From the NCBI RefSeq assembly GCF_001659685.2, contig NZ_LXYE02000030.1, positions 62,001-126,000 of the forward strand: DNA of 64,000 bases, given 5' to 3'. The notes below the pieces were generated by a model that was given only the letters and a program-made list of their open reading frames with translations, did not search any database and was not told the origin of the DNA. Position numbers and translations under genes: made by a program. Of this stretch, positions 25,472 through 42,093 are shown piece after piece (position 1 is the first letter of the stretch; each line of letters opens with the position of its first letter). The DNA comes from Labilibacter marinus (GTDB taxonomy: Bacteria; Bacteroidota; Bacteroidia; Bacteroidales; Marinilabiliaceae).

Positions 25472-27289
25472 ATGATACAAATTAAGCACTTTGTAGCTAT
25501 AGTAGTTGCAATTTTTTTAGTGTTCGCAAACAATGCGCAAGCTTCCAACAAACAAAAGCCTAATGTTATTTTAATTATTACCGATGATCAAGGATATGGT
25601 GATGTGGCAGCTTTGGGTAATAAGATAATAAAGACGCCTCAAATGGATAAGCTTTATAAAGAAGGAGTTCGTTTAACCAACTTTCATGCAGGAACTACTT
25701 GCGCACCTAGTCGTTCTGGTTTAATGACAGGAGCCGAGGGAAATCGTGCAGGTGTATGGCATACCATTGGTGGATGCAGCCTGATGCGCGAGAAGTTTAC
25801 CATTATGCCGCAGGTTTTTAAACAGAACGGTTACTCCACAGCTATGTATGGTAAGTGGCACTTAGGCGATGAATATCCTTATCGTCCAGAAGATCGTGGC
25901 TTTGACGAAACGGTTGTTCACGGTGCTGGTGGTGTAGGGCAAACTCCTGATTATTGGAATAACGATTATTTTGATGATACCTATTGGCACAATGGAACAC
26001 CTCAAAAATATAAAGGTTATTGTACCGATGTATTTTTCTCTGAAGCCATCGATTATATCGAAACGAAGAAAGACGAACCTTTCTTTGTGTACATTTCTCC
26101 AAATGCTCCTCATGGCCCTTATAATGTTCCCGAAACGTATTTTAATCGTTATAAAAATGAGCCTTTGCTGAATGAAACGCAAAAAGCCTATTATGGTATG
26201 ATTACCAATATTGATGATAACATAGCCAAGTTGGAGCAAAAACTTGAAGAACTTGGAATTAAAGATAATACTATACTAATTTTCACCACGGATAATGGCG
26301 CAGCCTGGCATACAATTAAAGATGGTAAAAGCAAATATGTTTATAATGCGGGTATGAATGGTTATAAAGGTTCGCCGTACGAAGGAGGACATCGTGTCCC
26401 TTTCTTTATCCGTTGGAAAGATGGCAATATCGTAGGAGGTCATGATGTGAGTCAGTTAGCCATGAATTTTGATATTTTGCCAACCTTAATTGCTTTGTGC
26501 GGAATGAATAACCATCCTAATACAGGACGTGATGGACGTGATTTAACACCACTTATAAGGCAAGAAGTTAAAGATTGGCCTCACCGCTATTGTGTGGTTG
26601 ATAACAATCGCTTGCAACAACCTGAAAAATGGCGACAAAGTGCAGTTATGGATGACAACTGGCGTTTAATTAATGGGAAAAAGTTATACGACTTAAGCAA
26701 AGATCCTGGACAGAAGAATGACATTGCCAAAAAGCATCCTGCAAAGGTAAAAGAAATGCGTTCTGCCTATGAGCAGTGGTGGTCTTATACTTCTCGTGAA
26801 TTTGGTCGTTTTGAGGCCTATAAGATTGGCGCGACGGATCATACAGAATCTGTTTTAACAGCGCACGATTTGCATACTTTCTCCCCAATAACATGGAGCC
26901 AAACTTATATCAGAGATCCGTACTTTGGAAAAAAACCTGCGTTGGGAACAGGTTATTGGATGATTGACATTCAACAAGAGGGTGAATATGAAATTGAACT
27001 AAGAAGATGGCCGCGAGAATCAGGTTTAGGTTTTGATGACACCACTGTTCAATTAAATACTAGAACACCTTGGATGGATATTAGGCCTGCAGGAATAAAG
27101 GTTGAAATTAAAAAAGCTATACTTAATATTGAAGGTATTCATATGGAAGAAAAGGTGGATATGACGAAGGATAATGTGAGCTTTAAAGCTTATTTATGCG
27201 AGGGAAGGCAGCATCTAGAGGCTTCTTTTATTGATGAAGACGATAAAGAATTCTCGGCTTTTTATGTGTATATCAGGCGAATCGATTAA
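25472..27289 (+). CDS. S1-family sulfatase with C-terminal beta-domain
   Basis: Signal peptide about 1-25 (NAQAS). LIITDDQGYGDV supplies Asp38-Asp39, Cys77-Ala-Pro-Ser-Arg81 is a canonical formylglycine motif, and YGKWHLGDE, FTTDNGAAW and YEGGHRVPF follow. At 605 aa it is longer than its neighbours. The extra 140 residues (about 465-605) are beta-rich and include GTGYWMIDIQQEGEYEIELRRWP, possibly a carbohydrate-binding or oligomerisation domain. The domain is inference from strand pattern. A 130-bp gap with a short palindrome separates it from the last sulfatase. Confidence 0.92.
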   Translation: MIQIKHFVAIVVAIFLVFANNAQASNKQKPNVILIITDDQGYGDVAALGNKIIKTPQMDKLYKEGVRLTNFHAGTTCAPSRSGLMTGAEGNRAGVWHTIGGCSLMREKFTIMPQVFKQNGYSTAMYGKWHLGDEYPYRPEDRGFDETVVHGAGGVGQTPDYWNNDYFDDTYWHNGTPQKYKGYCTDVFFSEAIDYIETKKDEPFFVYISPNAPHGPYNVPETYFNRYKNEPLLNETQKAYYGMITNIDDNIAKLEQKLEELGIKDNTILIFTTDNGAAWHTIKDGKSKYVYNAGMNGYKGSPYEGGHRVPFFIRWKDGNIVGGHDVSQLAMNFDILPTLIALCGMNNHPNTGRDGRDLTPLIRQEVKDWPHRYCVVDNNRLQQPEKWRQSAVMDDNWRLINGKKLYDLSKDPGQKNDIAKKHPAKVKEMRSAYEQWWSYTSREFGRFEAYKIGATDHTESVLTAHDLHTFSPITWSQTYIRDPYFGKKPALGTGYWMIDIQQEGEYEIELRRWPRESGLGFDDTTVQLNTRTPWMDIRPAGIKVEIKKAILNIEGIHMEEKVDMTKDNVSFKAYLCEGRQHLEASFIDEDDKEFSAFYVYIRRID

Positions 27290-27364
27290 GCCTAATTGGA
27301 GCTTAAGAGATTAACAGGTTAGTAAAATATAAAGGTATAAGAAAAAACACAGAATCTCGATGCC

Positions 27365-27383
27365 CCTGCCTGCTGCAGGCAGG
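27365..27383. repeat. Near-perfect short palindrome CCTGCCTGC-T-GCAGGCAGG
   Basis: Two 9-bp arms around one base lie just upstream of the fifth sulfatase gene. Similar CCTGCC...GGCAGG palindromes are common in Bacteroidota intergenic DNA and behave like REP elements. An ATG at 27360 in frame with the sulfatase would translate this palindrome as MPLPAAGR, so the downstream ATG at 27420 is preferred as the start. Confidence 0.7.
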
Positions 27384-27419
27384 TCGGTGTTCAGCAGTAT
27401 AACTGTAAAATTAAAACAA

Positions 27420-29057
27420 ATGAAACAAATACTATTATTCTCAATCATTATACTTCTTTCAATTAGCGGCTATGCTAAAAAGAACGAACGTCCCAACATC
27501 ATCTTCATCTTAACCGATGATCAATCCTACGGGATGATGGGATGTACAGGAAATGAAATCATTCAAACACCCAATTTGGATAAGTTGGCAGGTGAAGGAG
27601 TGTTGTTCACCAACGCTCATGTTAGTAGCGCCATTTGTACCCCAAGCAGAGTATCTATATTCTTGGGGCAATACGAACGCAAACACAGTGTTAATTTTAA
27701 CTCGTCAACAGCTATTTCAGAAGAAGCATGGCAGGAATCGTACCCTGTATTGATGCGAAAGGCTGGTTATTATACTGGATATATTGGAAAAAACCATTCG
27801 CCCATAGGTAAAGAGGGTTACGAAAGTGGAATTATTGAAAATAGCTTTGATTTTTGGTTTGCCAGTCATGGAGGAGTGTATTTTTATCCAAAAGAAAGGC
27901 GAGAAATATACAAAGATGCCATTGCAGAAACTCAGGCAGAGGTATTAGAAGAAGGCGTAAATCAGTTTCTCGATCCTAATGCACGGAGATTAAAAGGAGC
28001 TATTAGCTTCTTGGAAGAACGCCCATCGGATAAGCCTTTTATGCTCAGCCTGAATTTTAATATCCCGCACGGGGCCACCACACAAACCATGCGTCAGCGA
28101 GCAACGGATGATGAAATTTACCGCGCGCTTTATCGCGATAAAGAAATCCCTTTACCTCCAAACTATATTGCAAAAGGAGATATCAAAAATCCAAAACTTC
28201 CAGTCAATATTCATCACGCCAACGATCGTCAGGCAGGTTATAACTACGTGGATACACCAGAAGATATGAAGGAACGATACATTCTTCAGATGCAGTGTAT
28301 TACTGGCGTTGATCGTATGGTCGGGAAATTACGTGAAACTCTGAAGGAGTTAGAGTTGGATAAAAATACCATTATTATTTTCACTTCAGATCATGGCCTG
28401 TTTATGGGAGAACACGGACTAGGAGGGAAGTCTCTGTGTTACGAAAAATGTACGCATGTCCCCATGTTTATGTACCACCCTAAAATGAAAAAAGGGTATA
28501 AAAGTGATGCGCAGGTACAAACCATAGACATAGCCCCAACTATGCTTTCATTAGCAGGTGCAGAAATACCTAAAGCTATTCAAGGAAAAGATATTTCTGC
28601 ATTTATAAAGGATGGAAAAACAAAAGTTCGGGATTATCTCTACACGGAAAACTTATGGTCCACCACTTTTGGTAATCCTAGGTGCGAAGCGGTACAAACG
28701 AAAGAATGGAAGTACATCAGGTACTATAAGAACAATAATATTTCAGCTACAGAAAAAGTTAATTTGGCAAAAGAATATGGCATTTCTCAAAGAGTTATGC
28801 TTTACGAGGTACATCCGCAGCAGTTTGCTGTGTACCGAAATTATATAGAAAACCCAATTAATGGCGAGCTTCCTGTTTATGAGGAATTGTATCACTTAGC
28901 GGAAGACCCGCATGAAGTACATAACTTGGTTAAAAAAGCAGAACATAAGGCCATTTTAGAAGAATTAAGAGCTGCGTGGAAATCAGAAATTACAAAAGCT
29001 AGAGGCGAAGGTAAACCTAAAGTAGTTATTCATAGTAATATGAAATCTAAAATCTAA
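27420..29057 (+). CDS. S1-family sulfatase (DHG type)
   Basis: Start taken at ATG 27420 because the signal peptide (MKQILLFSIIILLSISGYA) begins there. FILTDDQSYG supplies the Asp pair, Cys73-Thr-Pro-Ser-Arg77 is canonical, GKNHS replaces the usual GKWH, and FTSDHGLFMGEHG (Asp-His-Gly rather than Asp-Asn-Gly) together with KSLCYEKCTHVP is typical of the choline/iduronate-type branch of S1 sulfatases. Length is 545 aa. It ends 55 bp before the hairpin that was once the terminator of the opposing tRNA-Ser gene, so this is the last gene of the cluster on the ancestral chromosome. Confidence 0.92.
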   Translation: MKQILLFSIIILLSISGYAKKNERPNIIFILTDDQSYGMMGCTGNEIIQTPNLDKLAGEGVLFTNAHVSSAICTPSRVSIFLGQYERKHSVNFNSSTAISEEAWQESYPVLMRKAGYYTGYIGKNHSPIGKEGYESGIIENSFDFWFASHGGVYFYPKERREIYKDAIAETQAEVLEEGVNQFLDPNARRLKGAISFLEERPSDKPFMLSLNFNIPHGATTQTMRQRATDDEIYRALYRDKEIPLPPNYIAKGDIKNPKLPVNIHHANDRQAGYNYVDTPEDMKERYILQMQCITGVDRMVGKLRETLKELELDKNTIIIFTSDHGLFMGEHGLGGKSLCYEKCTHVPMFMYHPKMKKGYKSDAQVQTIDIAPTMLSLAGAEIPKAIQGKDISAFIKDGKTKVRDYLYTENLWSTTFGNPRCEAVQTKEWKYIRYYKNNNISATEKVNLAKEYGISQRVMLYEVHPQQFAVYRNYIENPINGELPVYEELYHLAEDPHEVHNLVKKAEHKAILEELRAAWKSEITKARGEGKPKVVIHSNMKSKI

Positions 29058-29111: not shown

Positions 29112-29145
29112 AAAAAAAGCCCTGAGTTAATAAACTCAGGGCTTT
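29112..29145 (-). terminator. Intrinsic terminator, probably the displaced original tRNA-Ser terminator
   Basis: Perfect 13-bp arms (AAAGCCCTGAGTT at 29116, AACTCAGGGCTTT at 29133) with a 4-nt loop. On the minus strand a seven-T run follows the hairpin. It abuts the left copy of the 18-bp att repeat. Before insertion it would have stood directly downstream of tRNA-Ser, which is now at 45119-45203. It can also serve the converging sulfatase cluster. Confidence 0.85.
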
Positions 29146-29162
29146 CAGCGGAGAGAGAGGGA
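29145..29162. repeat. att direct repeat, left copy (outer end of the integrative element)
   Basis: TCAGCGGAGAGAGAGGGA, identical over 18 bp to 45115-45132, which is the 3' end of the tRNA-Ser gene. It marks the distal boundary of a site-specific insertion of about 16 kb. Confidence 0.88.
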
Positions 29163-29340: not shown

Positions 29341-31161
29341 CTAACGTGGTTTTTTATTTTCAGTATGCCTCCAATTGTATAAGGTTTCTTTTCTTGTTTT
29401 ACCACCTAATTGATTAAAATGAGTTGCAGCCTTAGGTGCTCCACCAAAACTGGAAATTGCCCATTCTGCTAATCTACTTTTAAAATCATCAATCATTTCT
29501 TCGGCAGTTTTACTTTTTGAAAATTCATCTTGGGTGTCATTATTATTCCAACTATATCTTTCGAATTCTTTTCTTGCGAAATCAAACGCATTTCTTTCAC
29601 TAAGTAAATTCTTTAATTCTTTATTAAAAGACAAAAACGACTTATAGTATATGGCTATCTTCTGTAAATCCCTATAGTTGCCGTAAAGTTCTTGACTTCT
29701 TATCCAGTTAAGAAAGTTTTTGTCCTTACTTATATATTTGTCAAATGGAAATTGTTCTTGAAATTTCATTTGAGTCCAGATCTTTTCAAATTCAGCAGGT
29801 ATGTCTTCCTTAGCGTTTCTTAAAGGCGGTAATTCAATAACTAATTGGGTAATTCTATCATAAAAGTCTGGCAATAATTTTTGTTTTAATTCTTTAATTG
29901 AGTTATTTGAAGCTAAAATTATTGTTAATTCCTTTATTGTTTCTTCCTTGCCTCCGAGAGGAGTTATTTTATACTGGTTATACTCATCTGTTTGAAGTGC
30001 CCTCATTAACTTAGCTTGCGTTAGTTTATCGAGGTGATGAATTTCATCAAGAAAGAGAATGTTATTTTCTGCTTGTTTTAATGCTCCTATATGATCATCT
30101 TTTGCATCGGTAAATGCGCCTTTTTTGTGTCCAAATAAAATGGATTCAGCAATTTGATTATTTGTAAAAGATGCACAATTAAATGGTATGATTTCTTTTC
30201 CTTCTTTATTTTCAGCTAATCTAGTTTTTCCAACACCTCTTTCTCCTAATAGTAAAATTGTAAAGCCTGAGTTTAGGTAAGATTCCATCTTTTGCTCAGT
30301 AACTTGTCGGTTTTCTGATTTGGTTTTCGTATCGTATAAAGGGAAGTGCTTTGTTATTTCTGTTAGTATTTTATTGGGTATCTTTTTTATTATTAAAGGC
30401 TTAAAGCGACCTTTAGCAACCTCCTTATTATCATATGTTTGTATGAGTGTGGTTTTTTGAGGAAGATGCCCAGTCTCACTTAATACCTGCCATACCACTT
30501 GAGTCTCATTACTACCAAGCGAGGAGTTAATTATGAAATTAGCGTTTGGATGTTTAGCTTTAATTTTACTAATGAAAGGTTGTATTTTTTTAGAAATACT
30601 GGATGCATCCCTGAGGTTTTTAATACCAAAACTTTCGGCTATGAACCGTTCACCTGCAGGGTAAAATTGTTTTGCATTACTATAATTGCCAAACCACCAT
30701 ATTTGATCTTCTACATCGTAATGAGGCATATCTCGCCATAAGGTTTTTTTCCAATGTCGATAAACATCTTTATAATGATTTCTGACAAAAGAATCTTCTT
30801 CTTTCATTTTCCAAGTATGATTAAGAATACGTCTTTTATTGATGAGTTTTTGCCAGACTTTAAAGCTCTTGTCACTCTTAATGAATTCGTCCTCAAGAAT
30901 ATTTGATATATAATCGAATCTTCTTCTGGATAATTTATCAAAGGTAACCTGCGGAGCTGTTAAGTAATAAACTTTATCAAAAACAAAGCCTCCATTGTCT
31001 ATATCTTCATTAAATAAGAGATTCATTTCTTCCTGACAAATTCCACTTTGGTTATAAATATCATGAATTCCATATTTATAAAAAGCTGAAAGAATATGTT
31101 TTAGGTATGCGATTCCATGCGTTGTATAATGCCATGTAATAAAAATATTTTCTTCCTTCAT
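29341..31161 (-). CDS. RtcR-like regulator: CARF-like sensor + sigma54-type AAA+ + C-terminal HTH
   Basis: Predicted enhancer-binding activator. The N-terminal half (about 1-270) has a NFIINSSLGSNETQVVWQVLSETG-LIQT segment like the ligand-binding strand-loop of CARF domains in RtcR. The AAA+ domain has Walker A GERGVGKT (306-313), Walker B ILFLDE (368-373) and the sigma54-contact loop as GAFTDA (348-353) in place of GAFTGA. The C-terminus (about 570-606) looks like a short Fis-type HTH. It is divergent from two mini-genes and a modification operon, and a sigma54-type promoter at 31252-31268 faces that operon. The inferred role is to sense an RNA-derived or cyclic nucleotide and switch on the neighbouring genes. 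RNA-repair genes (rtcA/rtcB) are not present. The CARF call rests on motif resemblance only. Confidence 0.72.
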   Translation of the reverse strand: MKEENIFITWHYTTHGIAYLKHILSAFYKYGIHDIYNQSGICQEEMNLLFNEDIDNGGFVFDKVYYLTAPQVTFDKLSRRRFDYISNILEDEFIKSDKSFKVWQKLINKRRILNHTWKMKEEDSFVRNHYKDVYRHWKKTLWRDMPHYDVEDQIWWFGNYSNAKQFYPAGERFIAESFGIKNLRDASSISKKIQPFISKIKAKHPNANFIINSSLGSNETQVVWQVLSETGHLPQKTTLIQTYDNKEVAKGRFKPLIIKKIPNKILTEITKHFPLYDTKTKSENRQVTEQKMESYLNSGFTILLLGERGVGKTRLAENKEGKEIIPFNCASFTNNQIAESILFGHKKGAFTDAKDDHIGALKQAENNILFLDEIHHLDKLTQAKLMRALQTDEYNQYKITPLGGKEETIKELTIILASNNSIKELKQKLLPDFYDRITQLVIELPPLRNAKEDIPAEFEKIWTQMKFQEQFPFDKYISKDKNFLNWIRSQELYGNYRDLQKIAIYYKSFLSFNKELKNLLSERNAFDFARKEFERYSWNNNDTQDEFSKSKTAEEMIDDFKSRLAEWAISSFGGAPKAATHFNQLGGKTRKETLYNWRHTENKKPR

Positions 31162-31175
31162 GTGATTATATGATT

Positions 31176-31224
31176 ATATAGTATGCTCATATAAATATAT
31201 AGAAATATATTAAATATACTATAT
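31176..31224. promoter_or_regulatory. Inverted repeat, candidate upstream activator site
   Basis: ATATAGTAT (31176-31184) and ATACTATAT (31216-31224) are perfect 9-bp inverted arms, 28 bp upstream of the -24 element of the sigma54-type promoter. They sit in the gap between the activator gene and its presumed target, where an enhancer-binding protein would bind. The region is very AT-rich, so chance arms are possible. Confidence 0.4.
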
Positions 31225-31251
31225 GTATAAGGTAATGAGATTCTAAAAATA

Positions 31252-31268
31252 TTGGCACGGGTATTGAA
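31252..31268 (+). promoter_or_regulatory. Sigma54-type (-24/-12) promoter
   Basis: TTGGCACGGGTATTGAA: the -24 element TTGGCACG is perfect against YTGGCACG, and the -12 element TTGAA differs from TTGCW by one base. The GG and GA doublets are separated by exactly 10 bp, the required spacing. Predicted start is near 31279, 27 bp before the first mini-gene. The divergent AAA+ activator is the natural regulator. Confidence 0.72.
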
Positions 31269-31305
31269 AAATTGTTGATTGATATACTTTTAAAAATCAA
31301 TCAAT

Positions 31306-31440
31306 ATGAAAAATGTTAAATCGGGCAGTCATAATGCCGATATGAAGAATTCTAACAAAGGTACTTCTGGACAAAACAAAACACACGCAAAAAATCAAGG
31401 AAATCGAGGTAAGCAATTAAATCCTAATCAAAAAAAATAA
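31306..31440 (+). CDS. Mini-protein 1 (44 aa, hydrophilic, Asn/Lys-rich)
   Basis: ATG to TAA without interruption, first frame after the sigma54-type promoter. It is rich in Asn, Lys, Gly and Gln, has no Cys and no hydrophobic stretch, so it is soluble and probably disordered. The C-terminus GNRGKQLNPNQKK contains a (K/R)QL(N/D)P motif that is also in the next mini-gene. It may be a precursor peptide, a stress-type small protein or a target of the downstream modification enzymes. No family is assigned. It is too short for ordinary gene callers. Confidence 0.6.
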   Translation: MKNVKSGSHNADMKNSNKGTSGQNKTHAKNQGNRGKQLNPNQKK

Positions 31441-31446
31441 ATAGGT

Positions 31447-31596
31447 ATGAGTTTAAATAACGATAATGATTACTCAAAAGAAGAGCTTGATAATTATTCA
31501 AGACAATTAGATCCGGAAAATGACGCGTATTGGCAATCAAGAGGTGAAGAAGAAAGACCTACTGATTGGCAAGATAGATTAGAAAAGGATGACTGA
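31447..31596 (+). CDS. Mini-protein 2 (49 aa, acidic)
   Basis: Starts 6 bp after the stop of mini-gene 1, so the two are almost certainly co-transcribed. It is strongly acidic (many Asp/Glu), with YSRQLDPENDAYWQSRG in the middle, echoing the RGKQLNPNQ of mini-protein 1, and two Trp in the C-terminal third. No Cys, signal peptide or membrane segment is present. It may partner the basic mini-protein 1 or be a second substrate of the operon. Function unknown. Confidence 0.6.
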   Translation: MSLNNDNDYSKEELDNYSRQLDPENDAYWQSRGEEERPTDWQDRLEKDD

Positions 31597-31643
31597 TAGA
31601 AAAACAATATCTAATCTATTAGTATAATATTCTGAAATATTTT

Positions 31644-31694
31644 CAAAGAAACTAAAGTTTAAGTAATTCTATACTTACTTCTTTAGTTTCTTTG
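31644..31694 (+). terminator. Long hairpin between mini-genes and operon (terminator or attenuator)
   Basis: Perfect 14-bp arms CAAAGAAACTAAAG (31644-31657) and CTTTAGTTTCTTTG (31681-31694), with an inner TAAGTA/TACTTA pairing. TGTTCTTTTTATATATTTT follows, so it can act as an intrinsic terminator. It lies 25 bp before the glycosyltransferase start. It could make the mini-genes abundant and let only part of the transcripts continue into the operon. Confidence 0.65.
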
Positions 31695-31718
31695 TGTTCT
31701 TTTTATATATTTTATTCA

Positions 31719-33005
31719 ATGCACATATTAAAAATAATTCACGGATATCCACCTTATTACAATGCGGGCTCAGAGGTATATAGTCAATCCATAGTAGATG
31801 AACTAAAGAAGACATATAAGATTACCGTTTTCACCAGAGAGGAAAATGAGTACATACCTGACTTTAACTTTAGAAGAGAGTCAGGAGATGGTGCTGATTT
31901 TGTTTTTGTCAATATGGCTAGAGGGAAAGATGGGTATAATCATGCAGCAATCAATAAAAGGTTAGCAGAGCTTATTGAAGATATAAAACCGGACGTAGCT
32001 CATATCGGTCATTTAAACCACTTGTCAACCGGAATAGTTGATGAATTGAATAAACAGAACATTCCTATTTTGTTCACCCTTCATGATTTTTGGCTAATGT
32101 GTCCAAGAGGACAATTTTTGCAAAGGAATTTTGATGGTGAAAATTTATATAAGCTATGTGACCGGCAAGAGGATTCTAAGTGTGCTGAGTCTTGCTACAG
32201 AATGTATCAATCCGGTATAGATTCCCAAAAGGATAGTAAGCATTGGGCAGAATGGGTGAATCAAAGGATGAGAATTACGAAGGAGGTTATTGACAAAGTT
32301 GATTGTTTTCATGCTCCTTCTAAATACCTCATGAATCGTTTTATTGATGACTTTGATGTGCCTAAAGAAAAAATTTTCTATCTCGATTATGGTTTTCCTA
32401 CTCATTACCTTAAGCCTGAAATACATTCCGATTCTGATACTTTTACATTTGGTTATATTGGAACTCATATAGCTGCCAAAGGGGTGAATTTATTAATTGA
32501 AGCATTTAAAGGAATAGAGGGAAAAGCTAAGCTTAAGATATTTGGCAGAGAACTAGGTCAAAGCACAAAGGCTTTAAAAAAGCTTTCTTCGGAATGCTCA
32601 AATCCGGTTGAGTTCTGTGGTGAATATATCAACCATAATTTAGCAAAGGATGTATTCAGTAAGGTTCACGCAATTGTAGTGCCATCAATATGGGGCGAAA
32701 ATTCACCATTGGTCATACATGAGGCGCAATCATGTCACATACCTGTAATTACAGCTGATTTTGGGGGTATGAAAGAATATGTGCAGAACAATGTAAACGG
32801 TTTACTCTTTCAACATCGGAATCTCGATTCTTTAAGAGAAAAACTTCAATTTGCTGTCAGTCATGCAGAAAAAATGAATTCGCTAGGAAGAAAAGGGTAT
32901 TTGTATTCAGGGAGTGGTGAGATACCGAATATTATTGAGCATTGCCAAGAGTTATATCGAAAGTACAATTATTTACTAGAATCAAAGAATGCAAAAACTG
33001 TATAG
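31719..33005 (+). CDS. GT4-type glycosyltransferase
   Basis: Start taken at ATG 31719 (MHILKIIHGYPPYYNAGSEVYS); a TTG at 31692 lies inside the hairpin region. GT-B fold: the N-terminal domain has the GSEVYSQ donor-side turn and ends near residue 215, and the C-terminal domain has FTFGYIGTHIAAKGVNLLIEAF and the nucleotide-sugar segment PSIWGENSPLVIHEAQSCHIPVI (Glu pair of the EX7E type). Length is 428 aa, with no signal or membrane segment, so it acts in the cytoplasm. It overlaps the next gene by 17 bp, showing translational coupling. The acceptor is unknown; a peptide or small molecule made by the operon is the inference. Confidence 0.82.
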   Translation: MHILKIIHGYPPYYNAGSEVYSQSIVDELKKTYKITVFTREENEYIPDFNFRRESGDGADFVFVNMARGKDGYNHAAINKRLAELIEDIKPDVAHIGHLNHLSTGIVDELNKQNIPILFTLHDFWLMCPRGQFLQRNFDGENLYKLCDRQEDSKCAESCYRMYQSGIDSQKDSKHWAEWVNQRMRITKEVIDKVDCFHAPSKYLMNRFIDDFDVPKEKIFYLDYGFPTHYLKPEIHSDSDTFTFGYIGTHIAAKGVNLLIEAFKGIEGKAKLKIFGRELGQSTKALKKLSSECSNPVEFCGEYINHNLAKDVFSKVHAIVVPSIWGENSPLVIHEAQSCHIPVITADFGGMKEYVQNNVNGLLFQHRNLDSLREKLQFAVSHAEKMNSLGRKGYLYSGSGEIPNIIEHCQELYRKYNYLLESKNAKTV

Positions 33006-34011
33006 ATTAACATTGGACACAAATCCGGAAGATTGTAATCTTAAATGTATAATGTGTGAGGAACACAGTAGATATAGCAATTTCAAAAATGAATTGTTTG
33101 TTTCTACTGGTGTTAAAGCCAGAAGGATGCCTTCTACTTGGATAGATAAAATATTTAAAGAAGCGAATGAACTTGGGGTTAAAGAGATTATTCCTTCGAC
33201 AATGGGTGAGCCTCTATTATATAAAGATATTGATAAGTTCTTTCAACTCGCTAGGAAATATGATATTAAAATAAACCTCACGACAAATGGTACTTTTCCC
33301 AAAAGAGAAGTTAAGGAATGGGCTAAATTGATTATTCCGGTAACTAGTGACACAAAAATATCTCTAAATGGAGTTACGAAAGATATAGCCGAAAGTATCA
33401 TGCATGGGCTTTCATTTGAAGAGCATGTATCGAATCTAAAAACCTTTATCGAATATAGGAACTTACACCATAAGAAATCAGGTTTTTATAGCACAGTAAC
33501 TTTGCAATTGACTTTCATGCAAAATAATATGCATCAACTACCTGAAATAATAAAGTTTGGGGCAAGCATGGGAGTTGACCGGATAAAGGGACATCATTTA
33601 TGGATGCATTTTGCTGAAATTAGAGACCTTTCCTTTAAAAAGAATCAGGAATCAATCGCAGAATGGAACTCAATAGTTGACAAGGCTAATGATGCAGTTG
33701 AAGCTTTTAGGAAACCAAGCGGTGAAAAGATTTTACTGGAACAAATTGACTATTTAAATGAAAAGGAAACTTTCATAATTCCTGATAGTTATAACTGTCC
33801 ATTTTTAGGTAAGGAGTTATGGGTTTCTGCAACAGGAAAAATATCTCCATGTTGTGCTCCAGACAAAGAAAGAGACTCGTTAGGTAACTTTGGAAACTAC
33901 CAAAATATAACATTTACAGAGGTGTTGAATAATGAAGTTTATAAAGATTTGATTACTAATTACAAGCAAAAGCCTTTATGTCAATCATGTATAATGAGAA
34001 AGCCGCTTTAG
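32989..34011 (+). CDS. Radical SAM/SPASM-type enzyme
   Basis: CNLKCIMC (residues about 15-22) is the CxxxCxxC motif that binds the SAM [4Fe-4S] cluster. The C-terminal part carries further cysteines (NCPFLG, PCCAP, CQSC) in a SPASM-like arrangement for auxiliary Fe-S clusters. Such enzymes often modify peptides or small molecules. At 340 aa and with these motifs it does not look like an anaerobic sulfatase-maturating enzyme, and it is far from the sulfatases in operon terms. It overlaps the glycosyltransferase by 17 bp and the phosphatase by 34 bp. The nearby mini-proteins have no Cys, so thioether formation on them is excluded. Confidence 0.85.
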   Translation: MQKLYRLTLDTNPEDCNLKCIMCEEHSRYSNFKNELFVSTGVKARRMPSTWIDKIFKEANELGVKEIIPSTMGEPLLYKDIDKFFQLARKYDIKINLTTNGTFPKREVKEWAKLIIPVTSDTKISLNGVTKDIAESIMHGLSFEEHVSNLKTFIEYRNLHHKKSGFYSTVTLQLTFMQNNMHQLPEIIKFGASMGVDRIKGHHLWMHFAEIRDLSFKKNQESIAEWNSIVDKANDAVEAFRKPSGEKILLEQIDYLNEKETFIIPDSYNCPFLGKELWVSATGKISPCCAPDKERDSLGNFGNYQNITFTEVLNNEVYKDLITNYKQKPLCQSCIMRKPL

Positions 34012-34679
34012 ACAGTGTAAATAGCCCAAGTACTTATATAGAACAACCTATAATTCCCAATTTTAGGGATGCTTCAAAATACGTATCAACTATAAAACCC
34101 AAAATGATATTTAGGACATCATCATTAACTAAATATCAGGATGTCAGTTCAGCTTTAGGTGTTATAAGGAGTAATAAAATCAAAACCGTTATTGATTTAA
34201 GAGCGGAAAGGGAAGTAAATGCAGATTCATATTCAGAATCATTTTCGCATGAGTTTTATTGCATTAATTTTCCTCTTGACCCATGGAATCAACCGGAATG
34301 GTTTGTAGAAGAGACAAAAACCATCTACTCAAATTTTTCAAATGCTGAAAAAGCATATTACTTTTTTATTAAGTGTTGTCAGTATCAAATCAGAGCTGTT
34401 CTTGAAACCATTTCTGTATCTGAATATCCGGTTGCAATCCATTGCGTTGCAGGAAAAGACAGAACCGGATTGATTACCATTTTAATTGGAATGTTAGTAG
34501 GTTCTGGTTATGAGGAATTATTGGTTGATTATTTACAAAGCGAACAGGATACGGATGAGTACAAATTCAGGATTTTCTATGATTATATTATGGGTGTCGG
34601 AGGAATAGAGGAGTATCTATCTCATAGTGGTATAAGTAAAGATGTTATCACGACTTTAAAACAAAAATTAGGAAAATGA
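33978..34679 (+). CDS. Tyrosine-phosphatase-family protein (Y_phosphatase3 type)
   Basis: IHCVAGKDRTG (about 155-165) is the HCx5R(S/T) signature with Cys nucleophile and Arg. An N-terminal NFRDAS and a FRTSSL motif are typical of the bacterial tyrosine/lipid phosphatase 3 family. Length (233 aa) is usual. It starts 34 bp inside the radical SAM gene and ends with ATGA overlap to the methyltransferase. The role may be removal of a phosphate from an operon intermediate or protein. The substrate cannot be inferred. Confidence 0.85.
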   Translation: MSIMYNEKAALDSVNSPSTYIEQPIIPNFRDASKYVSTIKPKMIFRTSSLTKYQDVSSALGVIRSNKIKTVIDLRAEREVNADSYSESFSHEFYCINFPLDPWNQPEWFVEETKTIYSNFSNAEKAYYFFIKCCQYQIRAVLETISVSEYPVAIHCVAGKDRTGLITILIGMLVGSGYEELLVDYLQSEQDTDEYKFRIFYDYIMGVGGIEEYLSHSGISKDVITTLKQKLGK

Positions 34680-35638
34680 TTGAGCATAGAAATGAGCTAA
34701 AAGGATTATTTACTCAATACTGGGATTACTTAGCTGTTTATGCTGCATGTAAACAGAATATTTTTGATTGTATTCAGAATACTTCTATGTCAATTAATTC
34801 CCTTGCTGATAATGAAGGATTTGATTTAGAAGTTTTAAAAGAATTAGTTTCAGTACTTAAACAGCAAAAGCTAATTCATGCAGATGGTGAGACGCTAAAG
34901 TTGACAATCAAAGGAGAACTCTTAACAGAATCTCATCCGTACTCTTTAAAATATGCATGTTTAAATTGGGGTGCAGAGCATTTAACAGCATGGCAAAATT
35001 TAGATTATACGTTAAAATCAGGCAAACAGGCTTTTAATCATTTATTTGGAAAGCCATTTTTCGATTATATATCAAATGACAAGGAAAAGTTATTGAGTTA
35101 CCATAGGGCAATGTATGAATATGCTCGTGATGATTATGAGAATATCTATCAAGTTCATGACTTTTCAAAACACCAATCTATAATAGATGTAGGTGGAGGT
35201 TTGGGCGCATTGATTGATGCTATTAAAGCCCATAATCCACAAATTAACAGCTATTTATTTGATAAGCCCGAAGTGATTGATTTGTATGAAGGAGATATTC
35301 CTGTAATAGGTGGAGACTTCTTTCAATCCATTCCTAAAGTTGCTGATGCGGTTATAATGAGTAGAGTTTTGCATGACTGGAGTGATGATAAATCAACATT
35401 AATTCTTAATAATGCTTTTGAATCTTTACCCAAAGGTGGGGTTTTATATTTAGTAGAGAACTTAACAGATAAAATTGATGATGGGGCAGCAATTCTATCT
35501 TTAAATATGCATGCTTTAACAGGAGGTTTTGAAAGAAGCTTATCTGAATACAAAAATCTCATAAAATCAACAGGGTTTAAATACATAGAGAATAAGAAAG
35601 TAAATGACCTTCAATCCTTAATTATAGCAGAAAAATGA
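34676..35638 (+). CDS. SAM-dependent O-methyltransferase (Methyltransf_2 type)
   Basis: The N-terminal winged-helix dimerisation part (about 1-90) is followed by a Rossmann domain with IIDVGGGLGALI (SAM motif I, about 167-178) and SRVLHDWSDD, the catalytic His/Asp segment typical of small-molecule O-methyltransferases in natural-product pathways. Length is 320 aa. Start and stop overlap both neighbours by 4 bp (ATGA), so it is coupled. Presence of this type beside a glycosyltransferase and radical SAM enzyme points to tailoring of a small molecule or modified peptide. Confidence 0.85.
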   Translation: MIEHRNELKGLFTQYWDYLAVYAACKQNIFDCIQNTSMSINSLADNEGFDLEVLKELVSVLKQQKLIHADGETLKLTIKGELLTESHPYSLKYACLNWGAEHLTAWQNLDYTLKSGKQAFNHLFGKPFFDYISNDKEKLLSYHRAMYEYARDDYENIYQVHDFSKHQSIIDVGGGLGALIDAIKAHNPQINSYLFDKPEVIDLYEGDIPVIGGDFFQSIPKVADAVIMSRVLHDWSDDKSTLILNNAFESLPKGGVLYLVENLTDKIDDGAAILSLNMHALTGGFERSLSEYKNLIKSTGFKYIENKKVNDLQSLIIAEK

Positions 35639-36336
35639 ATTGGAAAGATATAGAAGTTTCAGAATGCTCTACATTCTTTAAATACAATAGTCAAAAAATT
35701 TTTAATAAGACCTTTAAAGAAGTCTTGAAGTTTCATTCAGACGGATTAGCTCCTGTATGTGATGAAACAGGATGGTATCATATTGACATTAATGGCAACC
35801 CACTTTATGAAGATAGATATGATAGAGTGTTTGGATATTACTTCTCTAAGGCAGCGGTTATTCTTGATGAGTTCTGGTTTCATATTGATGTCAAAGGGAA
35901 CAGGTGCTACCGTGAAAAATATGCTTGGGTAGGTAATTTTCAAGAGAATGTTTGTACTGTCCGAAGTTCAGATAAACAATACTTTCATATTGATACAGAT
36001 GGTAAAACATTGTATTCGGATAGATACAGGTACTCAGGTGATTTTAAGGATGGTTTTGCAGTTGTGAAGCTTCAAAACGGTTTATGTAAGCATATAAATA
36101 AATCTGGAGAAGATTTAAATGGAAAGTTATTTTTAAATCTAGGGGTATATCATAAGTCATTTGCAACAGCCAAAGATGAAAATGGATGGTTTCACATTGA
36201 TAAAAATGGAAATCAACTTTATACCGAAAGGTATCTTGCAATAGAACCATTTTATAATGGTTTTTCTTTGGTCGAAACTCGTGATAATGAACAAAGTGTT
36301 ATTAATGAGAAGGGTGAGGTTGTCGTTAATATATAG
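35635..36336 (+). CDS. WG-repeat protein
   Basis: 233 aa built from about five WG-type repeats of W/F-x-H-I-D-x-x-G-x-x-x-Y-x-x-R/K-Y (GWYHIDINGNPLYEDRY, FWFHIDVKGNRCYREKY, QYFHIDTDGKTLYSDRY, GLCKHINKSGEDL, GWFHIDKNGNQLYTERY). WG repeats form beta-rich scaffolds with no enzymatic motif. No signal peptide, so cytoplasmic. It is the last gene of the coupled operon (4-bp overlap with the methyltransferase), and no terminator hairpin is obvious after it. A substrate- or enzyme-holding scaffold is the inference. Confidence 0.82.
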   Translation: MNWKDIEVSECSTFFKYNSQKIFNKTFKEVLKFHSDGLAPVCDETGWYHIDINGNPLYEDRYDRVFGYYFSKAAVILDEFWFHIDVKGNRCYREKYAWVGNFQENVCTVRSSDKQYFHIDTDGKTLYSDRYRYSGDFKDGFAVVKLQNGLCKHINKSGEDLNGKLFLNLGVYHKSFATAKDENGWFHIDKNGNQLYTERYLAIEPFYNGFSLVETRDNEQSVINEKGEVVVNI

Positions 36337-36540: not shown

Positions 36541-38070
36541 ATGGCAACACCACAAGAGAAACTTGCGAAAGCTTTGGAAGCATTACAAGTGTTACAACAA
36601 GATAATGATGTTATTATAATAAATGCAGATGATCTGTCAGCTCCGCATAAAAAGCTATTGAAAGACAACGGCTTTATTAAGGAAGTAATTAAAGGGTGGT
36701 ATATTTCAACTCGGCCTGATGAACGAGAAGGAGATACAACATCATGGTATATGTCCTTCTGGAGATTCGTTTCTACATATGTGAATTCACGTTTTGGTAA
36801 TGACTGGTGCCTTTCTGCAGAACAGTCTTTGCTTTTGCATAGTGGCAACACCATTATCCCAACTCAGCTTTTAGTTCGCTCTCCCAAAGCCAACAATAAT
36901 ATAGTACAGTTACTTCATGGCACTTCTATTCTGGATAACAAACTAAAAATTGTTGATGAAGAATCACGTATAATCAAAGATGGATTACAACTCTATAGCC
37001 TGGAGGATGGTCTTATTGCTGTTGGAGAGGACTTTTTTACCAGATATGCTACGGATGCCAGGGCTTGCCTTGCTATGGTTAAGGACGGCTCTTTCTTGCT
37101 CGAAAAGTTACTTAATGGTGGGCATAGTGTGGTTTCAGGCCGTTTAGCAGGGGCACTTAGGAATATAGGTAATAAAAAATTGGCTGATAACATTCTTAAA
37201 ACAATGAAATCAGCAGGATATGATGTACGTGAGAACGATCCGTTTACTGAGCAATTTACAATTAAGCTTAGTACAAGAGATGCCTCTCCTTATGCAAATC
37301 GGATGCGTTTAATGTGGCACAATATGAGAGAAGTAGTAGTTAGTAACTTTCCTTCACCAAAAGAATTGCCATCTGATATTGAAGCTTATTTAAAAGAGGT
37401 AGAAGATAACTATGCAGATGATGCATATAATTCTCTATCAATAGAAGGATATCGGGTTACATCCGAACTAATTGAGAAAGTGAAAAGTGGCAATTGGAAT
37501 CCAAAAGATAACGAAGCAGACCAAGAAGCCAGAAATGCAATGGCTGCAAGAGGATATTATCAGGCATTTCAGTTGGTTAAAGATAGTATAAAAGCAATAT
37601 TGGAAGGTGAGAATGCTGGAGAAGTCGCAGATGATAATCACGGAGATTGGTACAGGGAGTTGTTTGCACCAAGTGTTACAGCTGGCCTTTTAAAAGCAGG
37701 TGATTTAGCAGGTTATCGTTCCGCTCAGGTTTATATTAAGGGATCAATGCATACACCACTTAATCCGGATGCTGTTCGTGACGCTATGCCTGTTTTATTT
37801 GACTTGATTAGAGAAGAAACACATGCAGGTGTTCGAGCTGTTTTGGGGCATTTTTTATTCGTATTTATCCATCCTTATATGGATGGTAATGGCCGTATCG
37901 GGCGTTTTCTATTTAATGTGATGCTAGCTTCAGGAGGTTATTCCTGGACTGTAATTCCTCTCTCTCAAAGGGAAGCTTACATGGCTGCCCTGGAACAAGC
38001 TAGTGTTCATGGTGATATTAGTGACTTTGCTAAGTTTTTGGGAGGATTAGTGCAAAAAGGTTCAAAATAA
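36541..38070 (+). CDS. AbiEi-like winged helix fused to Fic-domain AMP-transferase (class II)
   Basis: HPYMDGNGRIGR (444-455) is the Fic active-site motif HxFx(D/E)GNGRxxR with Phe replaced by Tyr. S-L-S-I-E-G (298-303) is the N-terminal inhibitory helix motif (S/T)xxxE(G/N), so it is a self-inhibited class II Fic protein. The first about 200 residues start like AbiEi-type antitoxins (winged helix, then a DNA-binding or regulatory domain, GWYIS near 52). Expected to transfer AMP to a target protein and perhaps to control its own promoter through the 24-bp repeats upstream. Length is 509 aa. The start ATG 36541 immediately follows the repeats. A defence or toxin role is inference. Confidence 0.82.
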   Translation: MATPQEKLAKALEALQVLQQDNDVIIINADDLSAPHKKLLKDNGFIKEVIKGWYISTRPDEREGDTTSWYMSFWRFVSTYVNSRFGNDWCLSAEQSLLLHSGNTIIPTQLLVRSPKANNNIVQLLHGTSILDNKLKIVDEESRIIKDGLQLYSLEDGLIAVGEDFFTRYATDARACLAMVKDGSFLLEKLLNGGHSVVSGRLAGALRNIGNKKLADNILKTMKSAGYDVRENDPFTEQFTIKLSTRDASPYANRMRLMWHNMREVVVSNFPSPKELPSDIEAYLKEVEDNYADDAYNSLSIEGYRVTSELIEKVKSGNWNPKDNEADQEARNAMAARGYYQAFQLVKDSIKAILEGENAGEVADDNHGDWYRELFAPSVTAGLLKAGDLAGYRSAQVYIKGSMHTPLNPDAVRDAMPVLFDLIREETHAGVRAVLGHFLFVFIHPYMDGNGRIGRFLFNVMLASGGYSWTVIPLSQREAYMAALEQASVHGDISDFAKFLGGLVQKGSK

Positions 38071-38077
38071 GATAAAC

Positions 38078-38135
38078 TATACCACATCGGGTATAATATC
38101 ATTATAGTTAACGGTTATTATACCCGAACGGGTAT
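38078..38135. promoter_or_regulatory. Two related palindromes upstream of the phosphoesterase gene
   Basis: TATACC-N6-GGTATA (38078-38095) and ATACCCG-AA-CGGGTAT (38120-38135) have centres 41 bp apart, about four helical turns. GGGTAT(A/T)AT followed by TCATTATAG occurs after each, so the segment is also a loose direct repeat. They stand 19 bp ahead of the next start codon and look like paired operator sites for a dimeric regulator, identity unknown. Confidence 0.5.
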
Positions 38136-38153
38136 TATCAATGTCATTATAGA

Positions 38154-38900
38154 ATGAAAATACAGATCATTAGCGATATACATCAAGAGTTCGGGTTTAA
38201 TCAATTTAGTTTTGACAATGCTGACATTGTTGTGTTTGCTGGCGATATCAATCTTGGAGTAAAAGGAATAAATTGGATGGTGAAAGAAATACCCAATAAA
38301 CCAGTTATATATGTATTGGGTAATCATGAATACTATAAGGGATCTTACCCTAAAACATTGCTAAAGATTAAAGAAGTTGGGAAAGGAACAAATATTCATG
38401 TGTTAGAAAATGAATCGATAGAGATTGATGGTATAACATTCCATGGAGCTACCCTTTGGACTGATTTTTCAATATTTGGTAATCCAATGAAATATGGAAT
38501 CATTTGTCAGGAGAAGATGAATGATTATAAGAAAATAAGAAGAGATCCGTCATATTCACGCCTAAGAACCATAGATACTTTTCATCTTCATAATCAATCC
38601 ATATCATGGCTTAAAAAAAGTTTAGTTGAATCTAAAACAGTTACAAACATTGTAGTAACCCACCATGCTCCAAGCATAAAGTCAGTGCCAGATCCATATA
38701 AGAAAGATCCGGTGTCTTCTGCATATGCTTCCAATTTAGAGGATTTTATTATTGAGCAAAAGCCTCAGTGTTGGATTCATGGCCACGTGCATACACCTGT
38801 GAGATACAAGATTGATGAAACTGAAGTTATCTGTAATCCACATGGATATATTGATGAGAAATATAATGGTTATGAAAAGGAACTAATTATAGAAACCTGA
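38154..38900 (+). CDS. Calcineurin-like metallophosphoesterase
   Basis: All five metal-binding blocks are present: DIH (8-10), GDIN (about 30), GNHE (about 58), THH (about 168) and GHVH (about 218). Single domain, 248 aa, no signal, so cytoplasmic. Hydrolyses a phosphodiester or phosphomonoester; the substrate could be a nucleotide, nucleic acid or protein phosphate. It follows the Fic gene by 83 bp with its own operator-like palindromes. In a defence island it could degrade a signalling nucleotide, but nothing in the sequence proves that. Confidence 0.85.
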   Translation: MKIQIISDIHQEFGFNQFSFDNADIVVFAGDINLGVKGINWMVKEIPNKPVIYVLGNHEYYKGSYPKTLLKIKEVGKGTNIHVLENESIEIDGITFHGATLWTDFSIFGNPMKYGIICQEKMNDYKKIRRDPSYSRLRTIDTFHLHNQSISWLKKSLVESKTVTNIVVTHHAPSIKSVPDPYKKDPVSSAYASNLEDFIIEQKPQCWIHGHVHTPVRYKIDETEVICNPHGYIDEKYNGYEKELIIET

Positions 38901-38917
38901 GCAGCCCCAATCCGGTC

Positions 38918-39157
38918 TTAAAGCCCCTCAAACTCTTCCTGACTAATACAAAAGTGTTCCAGGATAAGCTCCAGTTCTTTGTGAGTAAAGTAATGGGCAC
39001 GTTTATTACGTGTCAGCTTATCAAGCTTAGTGATTAATTCCTGTGATAGTTTAATTTCTTTACGCAATAATTGCATGGCGGAAGTTGTATTTGAACTTTG
39101 TGGGTATAGTTTTTTAGCTAAATCTTGTTTTAGTATTGTTCGGGGTAATATCATCAT
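38918..39157 (-). CDS. DUF4248-like small protein, copy 1
   Basis: 79 aa. ILKQDLAKKLYPQSSNTTSAMQLLRKEIKLSQELITKLDKLTRNKRAHYFTHKELELILEHF fits the DUF4248 pattern of Bacteroidota mobile elements (LAxxYxP, then a mid Leu/Ile helix and a final R-x-x-T-x-x-E-x-x-x-I helix). It is a paralogue of the gene at 39683-39919, with about two-thirds identical residues by eye. Small helical, probably DNA-binding or replication-related, function not established. Convergent with the phosphoesterase gene (17-bp gap). Confidence 0.65.
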   Translation of the reverse strand: MMILPRTILKQDLAKKLYPQSSNTTSAMQLLRKEIKLSQELITKLDKLTRNKRAHYFTHKELELILEHFCISQEEFEGL

Positions 39158-39682
39158 ATTGCGTTTAATATTATTCTACTTCATTTTGATGGTTGTAAAA
39201 TTATATTATAAATCACAAAACGAACGACTTACGGCTGTGCCAATTTGCGACACAACTATGCCAATCACTACCATTTAGAACATTTTTTTGTCTTCATACT
39301 CCACAGACTCTAAAGATCACCCCATAAGCATCTAAAATATACGCTCATAAATGAAGCATTTTCACCATTTAATGATAGCTGCTGTTTTCATATTGGTGGT
39401 GATTTGGGTTAAGTACTATTGATAATGAGCAAAGCATCCACAAAGTACTCTCATAAATTTAGGAAGCATTCAAAAAGCACTCTAAATATACACTACAACA
39501 TAGGCAAAGCTCTTAAAAGCAAGTGAAATATACTCTGAATATAGTCTATACATACTCTAAAAGTACTCACAAGCATAAAAAAGCACGCAAAAGCAGTCTG
39601 ATTATTATCATAATTAGTGCTTTTGAGCTTGTTTCTATATGGTTTACCTTGTGCTTTATCATTATTCTTAAAGGTAAGCCTA
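39158..39682. other. 525-bp gap with degenerate AAGCAT direct repeats
   Basis: No convincing gene. Frames of 62-82 codons here overlap each other on both strands and look like chance. Three related 27-bp units begin AAGCAT at 39326, 39432 and 39464 and contain TAC(G/T)CTCATAAAT or CACTCTAAATATA. Further ACTCT and AAGC words continue to about 39600. The units could be binding sites for the DUF4248-like proteins encoded on both sides or a replication or transfer origin. Confidence 0.45.
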
Positions 39683-39919
39683 TTATAACAAATCAAATTC
39701 TTCCTCACTAATACAAAAATGTTGCAGGATTACCTCCAGCTCTTTGTGCGTGTAATAATGTGCTCTTTTATTTCGGGTCAATAAATCGAGTTTACTATTC
39801 AATTCCGATGATAGCTTAATTTCTTTTCTGAGTAACTGCATTGCAGCATTTATATTTGAGCTTTGTGGATATAGTTTTATTGCCAAATCTTGTTTCAAAA
39901 TCGTTCTTCTAAATGTCAT
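39683..39919 (-). CDS. DUF4248-like small protein, copy 2
   Basis: 78 aa: RRTILKQDLAIKLYPQSSNINAAMQLLRKEIKLSSEL... AHYYTHKELEVILQHFCISEEEFDLL. Nearly the same as the 38918-39157 product, so the two arose by duplication inside the element and both kept an open frame, which argues that both are used. Upstream (39920-40265) lies an array of 10-bp phased TTTACT words. Confidence 0.65.
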   Translation of the reverse strand: MTFRRTILKQDLAIKLYPQSSNINAAMQLLRKEIKLSSELNSKLDLLTRNKRAHYYTHKELEVILQHFCISEEEFDLL

Positions 39920-40265
39920 TTTGTTGAGTCTTTTTTGCGTTTTTCGGTTTCAATAATAAAGAATTAGAATGCAATAAAAAAGCAATAGTAAAACATAGTA
40001 ATATAAGGTAGTGTTAAGTAAATGGGTTGAGAATCAAATGGTAATAAAACGAAGTAAACGGATGTAAACGATTTTACTAGACTGATTAGAATGCATCGTG
40101 TACTCAATAATATTTACTTGAACGTAATTTAAAACATGCAAATCGATAAAATACGATACAAAACAATCTTTTACTTGCCTTTACTCTCCTTTACTTTCCG
40201 TTACTATCTTTTACTGGAAAGTGACTTCATCGTATTGCTTAGGTTTGAGGTGTAAAAATTAATAT
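39920..40265. other. 346-bp gap between DUF4248 gene and primase with phased repeats
   Basis: No gene. It contains GTAAACG at 40054 and 40064 (10 bp apart), TTTACTAG at 40073, and the five-copy TTTACT array at 40170-40215. Position next to a primase gene makes it a candidate replication origin of the element. A promoter/operator for the DUF4248 copy 2 gene is the alternative. Confidence 0.45.
40170..40215. repeat. Five TTACT words at exact 10-bp spacing
   Basis: TTACT begins at 40171, 40181, 40191, 40201 and 40211, four preceded by T and four followed by a pyrimidine-rich linker. The spacing puts every copy on the same face of the helix, as expected for a protein-binding array (origin iterons or operator). 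Confidence 0.65.
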
Positions 40266-41907: not shown

Positions 41908-41923
41908 ATTATATTAGACTTTT

Positions 41924-42091: not shown

Positions 42092-42093
42092 GT

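Follow-up and report, generated by a model that had tools for sequence, protein, structure and literature searches.

A CARF-type sigma54 activator and a mobile operon for a putative small glycoside in Labilibacter marinus

In a 64,000-nt stretch of the Labilibacter marinus genome (assembly GCF_001659685.2, contig NZ_LXYE02000030.1, positions 62,001–126,000; hereafter the window, in whose positions coordinates are given), a CARF-domain sigma54 activator faces two mini-genes, m1 and m2, and five overlapping genes encoding a glycosyltransferase, a radical SAM enzyme, a phosphatase, an O-methyltransferase and a WG-repeat protein. We are confident that this is a regulated, conserved and mobile operon. 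Its enzyme families suggest that the product is probably a small glycoside; a use in chemical defence, including defence against phages, we regard as evenly poised. As a whole, the locus can be read, with about as much for the proposal as against it, as a mobile, alarm-controlled biosynthetic cassette for a small glycosylated, phosphatase-matured, O-methylated or carbamoylated molecule, whose role would most likely be chemical defence. The novelty lies in the system; every part belongs to a known family.

The divergent activator, the promoter, the mini-genes and the five operon genes lie where the first-pass annotation of this DNA had placed them (Table 1), and Pfam agrees with every enzyme domain that it named (Glycos_transf_1, Radical_SAM/SPASM, Y_phosphatase3, Methyltransf_2 and WG_beta_rep). 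From the glycosyltransferase to the WG gene, neighbours overlap by 17, 34, 4 and 4 bp. The open reading frame (ORF) tool listed an earlier TTG at 31692 for the glycosyltransferase; its start was taken as the ATG at 31719, because the 94% identical twin in genome G016 (taken as Carboxylicivirga) starts at the ATG.

Table 1. Features of the activator–operon locus and of the element that carries it
Feature	Position	Strand	Evidence
CARF-AAA+-HTH (helix-turn-helix) sigma54-type activator, 606 aa	29341-31161	-	Pfam Sigma54_activat 4.1e-32; PADLOC RtcR_PspF1 CARF_AAA_HTH 6.3e-78; aligned with 17 relatives
Sigma54-type -24/-12 promoter, faces operon	31253-31268	+	TGGCACGGGTATTGAA; 37 bp 5' of m1
Mini-gene m1, 44 aa, Asn/Gly/Lys-rich conserved small protein	31306-31440	+	15/80 loci and window; alignment
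Mini-gene m2, 49 aa, acidic small protein	31447-31596	+	phmmer matches only in L100 and L165 among 80 loci
GT4-family glycosyltransferase	31719-33005	+	Pfam Glycos_transf_1 2.4e-24; 76/80 loci
Radical SAM enzyme, SPASM/twitch-like C-terminus	32989-34011	+	Pfam Radical_SAM 6.5e-14, SPASM 1.7e-9; cluster cysteines kept 5/5
Y_phosphatase3-type phosphatase	33978-34679	+	Pfam 1.6e-28; histidine phosphatase in its place in many relatives
Methyltransf_2 O-methyltransferase	34676-35638	+	Pfam 1.8e-41; elsewhere missing or swapped for O-carbamoyltransferase
WG-repeat protein, predicted propeller-like	35635-36336	+	Pfam WG_beta_rep; 77/80 loci; AlphaFold2 pLDDT (predicted local distance difference test) 95.4
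attL, 18-bp direct repeat, left end of 16-kb integrative element	29145-29162		TCAGCGGAGAGAGAGGGA; second copy 45115-45132
Tyrosine integrase of element	43656-44870	-	Pfam Phage_int_SAM_5 3.6e-21, Phage_integrase 1.1e-16
attR, 3' end of tRNA-Ser(TGA)	45115-45132; tRNA 45118-45203, minus		ARAGORN; 18-bp repeat

Relatives were found with the radical SAM protein as a guide. Five radical SAM sequences searched against 84,980 species genomes gave 250 stretches, 226 of them relatives, and the best 80 loci were kept; counts per 80 come from profile searches, and many of these loci are cut by contig ends. Most belong to Bacteroidota, the others to Planctomycetota, Leptospiraceae, Chloroflexi, Proteobacteria and one Heimdall archaeal bin. 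The enzyme is rare and scattered within the phylum, since it was detected at E 1e-60 in only two of 395 phylum genomes, one being the window's own. The first-pass annotation had proposed looking for conservation of the whole neighbourhood, and this was borne out: a GT4 glycosyltransferase was present in 76 of the 80 loci, a WG protein in 77, a phosphatase in 61 (tyrosine-type 33, histidine 29, both 1) and an O-methyl- or O-carbamoyltransferase in 51. The methyltransferase was retrieved in 40 loci and the carbamoyltransferase, at a score above 100, in 13 (15 in all), two of which also encode a methyltransferase. A nucleotidyltransferase domain was found in 25 of the 80 loci; this gene, an APH kinase and an aldolase occupy further slots, and the Pfam names of slot genes rest on single family members. 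Glycosyltransferase and radical SAM enzyme form a single ORF in 39 of the 76 loci, as they do on the phage contig L017 and in phage WO, while WG and methyltransferase are joined in L173–L176, L178 and on an Arsenophonus plasmid. These fusions link the activities to one another.

Around this core, alternative parts tend to exclude each other. Among the 73 loci with both glycosyltransferase and WG, 29 had only the tyrosine-type phosphatase, 26 only the histidine type, one both and 17 neither (Fisher p 2.5e-7); the corresponding counts were 36 for methyltransferase only, 11 for carbamoyltransferase only, one for both and 25 for neither (p 0.0014), in tests that ignore the kinship of the loci. On an 84-row radical SAM tree built with a quick method, the minimum number of changes was 11 for the phosphatase, 10 for the methyl-/carbamoyltransferase and 11 for the activator type, figures that are rough because 28 of the 79 inner branches are open. 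Close pairs display the same exchange. L114 and L120 are 94.4% identical from glycosyltransferase to WG, yet have different activators; L102 and L103 are 88% identical in the glycosyltransferase–radical SAM part, yet have different phosphatases; and L160 contains an inserted methyltransferase gene that L150 does not. As far as sequence tells, phosphatase type, tailoring enzyme and activator type have been exchanged repeatedly. Several additional slot genes were also observed. Two families without a Pfam match (L105:9005-9769 and L132:9012-9698) occur in four loci each, mostly between the radical SAM and phosphatase genes; class II aldolase, APH-type kinase and second radical SAM genes are exemplified by L141:9168-12387 and L109:5859-6731. 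The methyltransferase frame of L113 (8387-8942) is broken into two overlapping ORFs, and an AbiEii-type gene lies just 5' of the WG gene.

The first-pass annotation had called the regulator a CARF-type sigma54 activator, a view the profiles uphold: by sequence it is a CARF_AAA_HTH (RtcR_PspF-type) protein with a predicted N-terminal CARF-like Rossmann domain. The PADLOC match begins at residue 177, and the N-terminal parts of 15 activators matched RtcR-type N-termini in a profile comparison (probability 91.4, E 9e-7, 65 columns). In the AlphaFold2 model (pLDDT 85, predicted template modelling score 0.50), strands alternate with helices and a helical insert is present. The CARF-like domain was not matched alone, because residues 1–176 fall outside the PADLOC and profile matches and the fold matches of the whole activator, among the best 50 listed, are AAA+ structures. 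In the loop that contacts sigma54, the threonine is invariant in 18 of 18 aligned activator sequences, and the window protein has GAFTDA instead of GAFTGA. A full CARF activator was identified in 18 of the 80 loci and an AAA-only form in 17, with none found in 45; for the 55 loci with at least 2.5 kb upstream, the respective numbers were 17, 13 and 25. A failure of activator and operon to co-occur had been named beforehand as the finding that would count against their connection, and their joint presence in 18 loci removes that objection. In 17 of these 18, the activator lies on the opposite strand upstream of the glycosyltransferase gene (in some with ORFs between), and in L118 it lies downstream. 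With the activator as query, neither the 71 family genomes nor the 395 phylum genomes yielded another match at E 1e-40, an absence that is weak because only three candidates were scored in each genome listed, and viral contigs yielded none. CARF-type sigma54 activators were additionally noted on Klebsiella and Vibrio plasmids (L009–L011) behind a phospholipase D-like gene, to which the Vibrio plasmids add a helicase gene, and on one Vibrio plasmid cas1/cas2 and a RAMP gene are nearby; these plasmid genes are possibly another CARF-controlled set.

The window promoter scored 21 of 24, a value reached by none of 200 dinucleotide shuffles, with an imperfect -12 part (TTGA versus TTGC). To compare relatives, TGGCAY was sought within 240 nt on the operon strand in 18 distinct CARF cases (the 18 loci minus the duplicate L117 plus the window). 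This -24 element was present in 15 of them, against 1.32 expected from shuffles. It was found in two of the 11 AAA-only cases tested, against 1.33 expected, the remaining AAA-only loci being cut, differently arranged or outside the test; GAFTGA is retained by just those two (L123 and L134) and by none of the other nine. The -12 element is weak, since the whole 16-base consensus reached P <0.05 in just six of the 18 CARF cases. RpoN is encoded in the L. marinus genome, as is RtcB.

The activator, the operon and, at the right, a tyrosine integrase lie between two copies of an 18-bp repeat (29145-29162 and 45115-45132), the right one being the 3' end of tRNA-Ser; activator and operon are therefore cargo of a 16-kb integrative element. 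No other 18-mer is directly repeated in the window. Elsewhere the element encodes Fic, metallophosphoesterase, DUF4248, TOTE-type primase, HTH_17 and HipA-like proteins. Five of these, at 36541-44870, namely the Fic protein (PADLOC SoFic, 4e-23), the metallophosphoesterase (PDC-S10, 1.5e-16), the primase, the HTH_17 protein and the HipA-like kinase, are possibly a small defence or toxin–antitoxin island. Two sulfatase-like genes (25472-29057, judged by eye from translations) end just 5' of the left att site. G016, the one other carrier among the 71 family genomes, shares the five genes with the window (94.5% DNA identity over 31702-36332). Its operon stands beside a related integrase adjoining the same tRNA-Ser, with endolysin and helicase-like genes nearby, and an IMG/VR viral contig is identical to this locus across the 13,655 bp compared. 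The G016 activator is a 302-aa AAA+ protein without the CARF half and without GAFTGA. The switch was probably exchanged in one piece with the mini-genes, because identity with the window begins just 5' of the glycosyltransferase gene and the G016 m1 has diverged.

Relatives travel by different means. PHROGs matched an endolysin and an integrase in L014, the Carboxylicivirga prophage (two further L014 proteins had no match), and terminase, helicase, Sak4-like and RusA-like proteins in the phage contig L017. The latter encodes the glycosyltransferase–radical SAM fusion and WG; no tyrosine phosphatase or methyltransferase match was found in the profile search of this locus. In a scan of viral contigs, 79 of at least 80 loci matched general radical SAM proteins at 18–30% and were excluded as relatives, some serving as sequence controls. 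Altogether, the vehicles comprise the tRNA-Ser element, a prophage, a phage contig with a terminase, phage WO, insect-symbiont plasmids and a cassette-like unit.

The cassette-like unit was recognized in L150 and L151, loci of two metagenome-assembled genomes that are 99.975% identical over 4,047 bp from m1 to WG and have different flanks. The ends of the shared unit fall within attC-like sites (L151 6255-6396 and 10289-10431). Similar sites bound a unit in L145 (1-133 and 7257-7398) that includes the CARF activator. A covariance model built from six such sites gave 18 matches in 85 sources (1.21 Mb including the training sites, with the duplicate L117 omitted): L126, L145, L148, L150, L151, L154 and the other m1 loci L186 and L188, with three weak matches in L189. 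It gave no match in 53 control sources (817 kb) or in the window. All sites are on the operon or m1 strand. As in integron gene cassettes, L150/L151 and L145 have a same-strand site at each unit boundary; unlike in integrons, no IntI exceeded the cut-off in the six genomes searched, where three had partial matches below it, in neighbourhoods without an attC-like site by the covariance model. The integron label would draw on paired-arm sites and unit boundaries. Mis-binning of the two genomes is conceivable, but the L150 and L151 contigs are 240 and 494 kb long. L154 also contains three repeats (228-617, 4058-4405 and 6042-6468) that are 90–98% identical over 315–427 bp, one of them just upstream of the operon.

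Clues to the chemistry come from individual enzymes. Among solved structures, the methyltransferase is matched best by 6c5b (named only Methyltransferase), CalO6 and Plu4892. Four C-terminal cysteines of the radical SAM enzyme align with those of BtrN (E 0.0024), and the L100 nucleotidyltransferase resembles lincosamide nucleotidyltransferase (E 0.0026). The modelled WG protein matches mostly propellers among the best 50 folds listed, such as BamB and designed ones, at template modelling scores by query length of up to about 0.55; it is probably propeller-like and non-catalytic. Together, the structure and sequence matches support a small glycoside, not a named one. We propose that the CARF-domain enhancer-binding protein would sense a nucleotide- or RNA-end-type distress signal and open the sigma54 promoter, whose conservation is described above. 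The GT4 enzyme would then glycosylate an acceptor, the radical SAM enzyme alter a carbon centre, the phosphatase take off a phosphate and so release or activate the product, and the O-methyl- or O-carbamoyltransferase cap it, with the WG propeller probably binding substrate or product. Chemical defence against phages or competitors appears most likely because tailoring parts and switches are often swapped and because the operon is carried on phages, integrative elements, plasmids and cassette-like units.

Several observations weigh against this proposal. The window activator carries GAFTDA; no activator was found in 45 of the 80 loci, including 25 with at least 2.5 kb upstream; the kinship of the radical SAM enzyme to BtrN, from an aminoglycoside pathway, is weak; and no exporter is among the Pfam matches of the window operon. 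The Undecim Cluster of phage WO, compared below, is highly expressed in Wolbachia according to passages of PMC9203015, unlike what would be expected for an alarm-only role. At E 0.001, PADLOC matched none of the glycosyltransferase, phosphatase, methyltransferase and WG proteins, and gave only a weak pVip match for the radical SAM enzyme. Among the matches listed, 140 of 303 flank proteins matched 107 PADLOC models (including Gabija, Shedu, reverse transcriptase, viperin and Cas1), and 127 proteins of a control of 17 random stretches matched 39 (including CBASS and mads). PADLOC matches occur both beside the operon and in the control, and no enrichment is claimed, because the models are redundant, at most 25 rows are listed at a time and both sets hold whole defence systems. 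Pfam integrases were found in three of the 140 flank proteins and in none of the 25 control families listed.

The same evidence bears on other products. The first-pass annotation had envisaged tailoring of peptides or small molecules, and the peptide half fared poorly. SPASM enzymes often act on peptides, m1 stands first in the operon and is highly conserved, and both enzyme carriers among the 395 phylum genomes also carry it; m1 or m2 could therefore be the precursor of a ribosomally synthesised and post-translationally modified peptide, acted on by the radical SAM enzyme and the glycosyltransferase. Yet m1 was found in only 15 of the 80 loci and the window, with some loci cut by contig ends, lies on the opposite strand in L158 and L163, and, like m2, has no Pfam or NCBIfam match. 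It also occurs without the enzymes: of the five phylum genomes with m1, three are enzyme-free, namely L186, L187 and L188, the L188 copy having a stop codon inside the match. In L186 (9963-10103) and L188 (9930-10028), the m1-like genes lie near AAA_5-type ATPase genes (identified by Pfam and by resemblance, respectively) and attC-like sites. A peptide product is improbable for these reasons, and was rejected as the principal interpretation; m1 may be a small protein found generally in mobile cassettes. Modification of tRNA or other RNA, in which broken RNA would be sensed and tRNA made nuclease-resistant as an extension of the RtcR theme, is improbable as well. It would suit the RtcR-type sensor and the RtcB match on a different contig of the same genome, and glycosyltransferases and radical SAM enzymes can modify tRNA, but Methyltransf_2 and carbamoyltransferase are small-molecule families and no RNA-binding domain is among the Pfam matches of the five operon proteins.

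Two further alternatives differ in the target of the enzymes or of their product. Phage or island genes might decorate an envelope sugar, blocking superinfecting phages or varying antigens. GT4 enzymes often act on surface glycans, and the swapping of O-methyl for O-carbamoyl groups, seen as module exchange on the tree, would provide surface variation. Exopolysaccharide or lipopolysaccharide (LPS) roles have also been proposed for part of the Undecim Cluster, as passages of PMC9203015 report. Against an envelope role, Pfam found neither a flippase nor a polymerase nor a lipid-carrier enzyme in the window operon, a preventive coat would hardly be expected to answer to a CARF alarm switch, and mutually exclusive phosphatases would better suit a soluble phospho-intermediate; we consider this doubtful, while giving it some weight. 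Alternatively, the product might act on other bacteria or a eukaryotic host, as an antibiotic or signal, and not on phages. CalO6 and other natural-product enzymes among the best structure matches of the methyltransferase, and core genes on insect-symbiont plasmids and in a Wolbachia phage, point in this direction. By Pfam, however, neither an exporter nor a recognised immunity gene is present in the window operon, and CARF control suggests an internal distress signal; we consider such a target unlikely. A bolder form of the chemical-defence proposal, which we advance only tentatively, is inducible chemical immunity: CARF would sense infection- or damage-born nucleotides, an aminoglycoside-like modular glycoside, edited by the radical SAM enzyme, freed by the phosphatase and capped with an O-methyl or O-carbamoyl group, would stop the phage, prophages, integrative elements and integron cassettes would carry the genes, and the Undecim Cluster would be a domesticated, alarm-free descendant. 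Aminoglycosides block phages, according to PMC9239200, an analogy only.

The first-pass annotation knew of no named system with this gene set. This holds for the whole set in the literature and databases searched, where no report joined WG repeats with radical SAM, or glycosyltransferase, radical SAM, carbamoyltransferase and phage defence, and no such system was among the matches listed; it does not hold for the enzyme core, which recurs in the Undecim Cluster of Wolbachia phage WO (WD0611–WD0621), itself with relatives in Rickettsia, Cardinium and Phycorickettsia. Both sets are mobile and phage-borne. UC3 is a glycosyltransferase–radical SAM fusion with 44.6% identity to the window enzyme in the radical SAM part, and UC4 has WG repeats followed by a weak, sub-threshold O-methyltransferase dimerisation match (20.8 bits; cut-off 25.6). 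In contrast to the eleven contiguous Undecim genes, the window has counterparts of UC3 and UC4 only; it lacks the glmU-like, epimerase, PhyH, ABC transporter and threonine aldolase genes and adds the phosphatase, mini-genes and CARF–sigma54 switch. The activator has no match in the 29-kb phage WO stretch. Functions of the cluster are partly guessed in passages of PMC9203015, as exopolysaccharide or LPS roles, and are described as currently unknown in part of PMC12801941. The Rickettsia buchneri aminoglycoside cluster was considered as a link and not used: in the excerpts consulted, it sits in RAGE-A, and an Undecim-like region is on pREIS2 and elsewhere in the chromosome.

Other named systems are also only partly similar. 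The RtcR/Rtc RNA repair system, with a regulon that responds to damaged tRNA (PMC7790460) and a CARF domain of RtcR that binds RtcAB (PMC9650030), likewise has a CARF-AAA-HTH layout, divergent gene order and a sigma54-type promoter, and the window activator is 28% identical to Escherichia coli RtcR in a local alignment of residues 208–454. However, the window operon encodes neither RtcA nor RtcB, and its activator scores 140 against the NCBIfam RtcR cut-off of 650 and is longer N-terminal to the AAA+ domain, where a helical insert is predicted. Prokaryotic viperins share the radical SAM fold and the idea of small-molecule defence, but the match is weak (PADLOC 3.5e-8; NCBIfam 24.9 bits, cut-off 180) and the partner genes differ. 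Aminoglycoside and aminocyclitol pathways have a similar mix of enzyme types (BtrN, O-carbamoyl- and O-methyltransferases); the BtrN alignment is weak, as noted, and the operon has no aminocyclitol synthase or aminotransferase among its Pfam matches. We count the system as new, because none of the named families compared with the entire set agrees with it in every defining feature.

The locus links CARF alarm sensors, a conserved glycoside-like enzyme set and mobile carriage, which were not joined in the literature found. If the product is antiviral, viperin would be joined by another inducible chemical defence, one with built-in diversity. The unexplained Undecim Cluster also gains relatives, mostly in Bacteroidota, that are perhaps easier to study, which makes the chemistry of the cluster directly testable.

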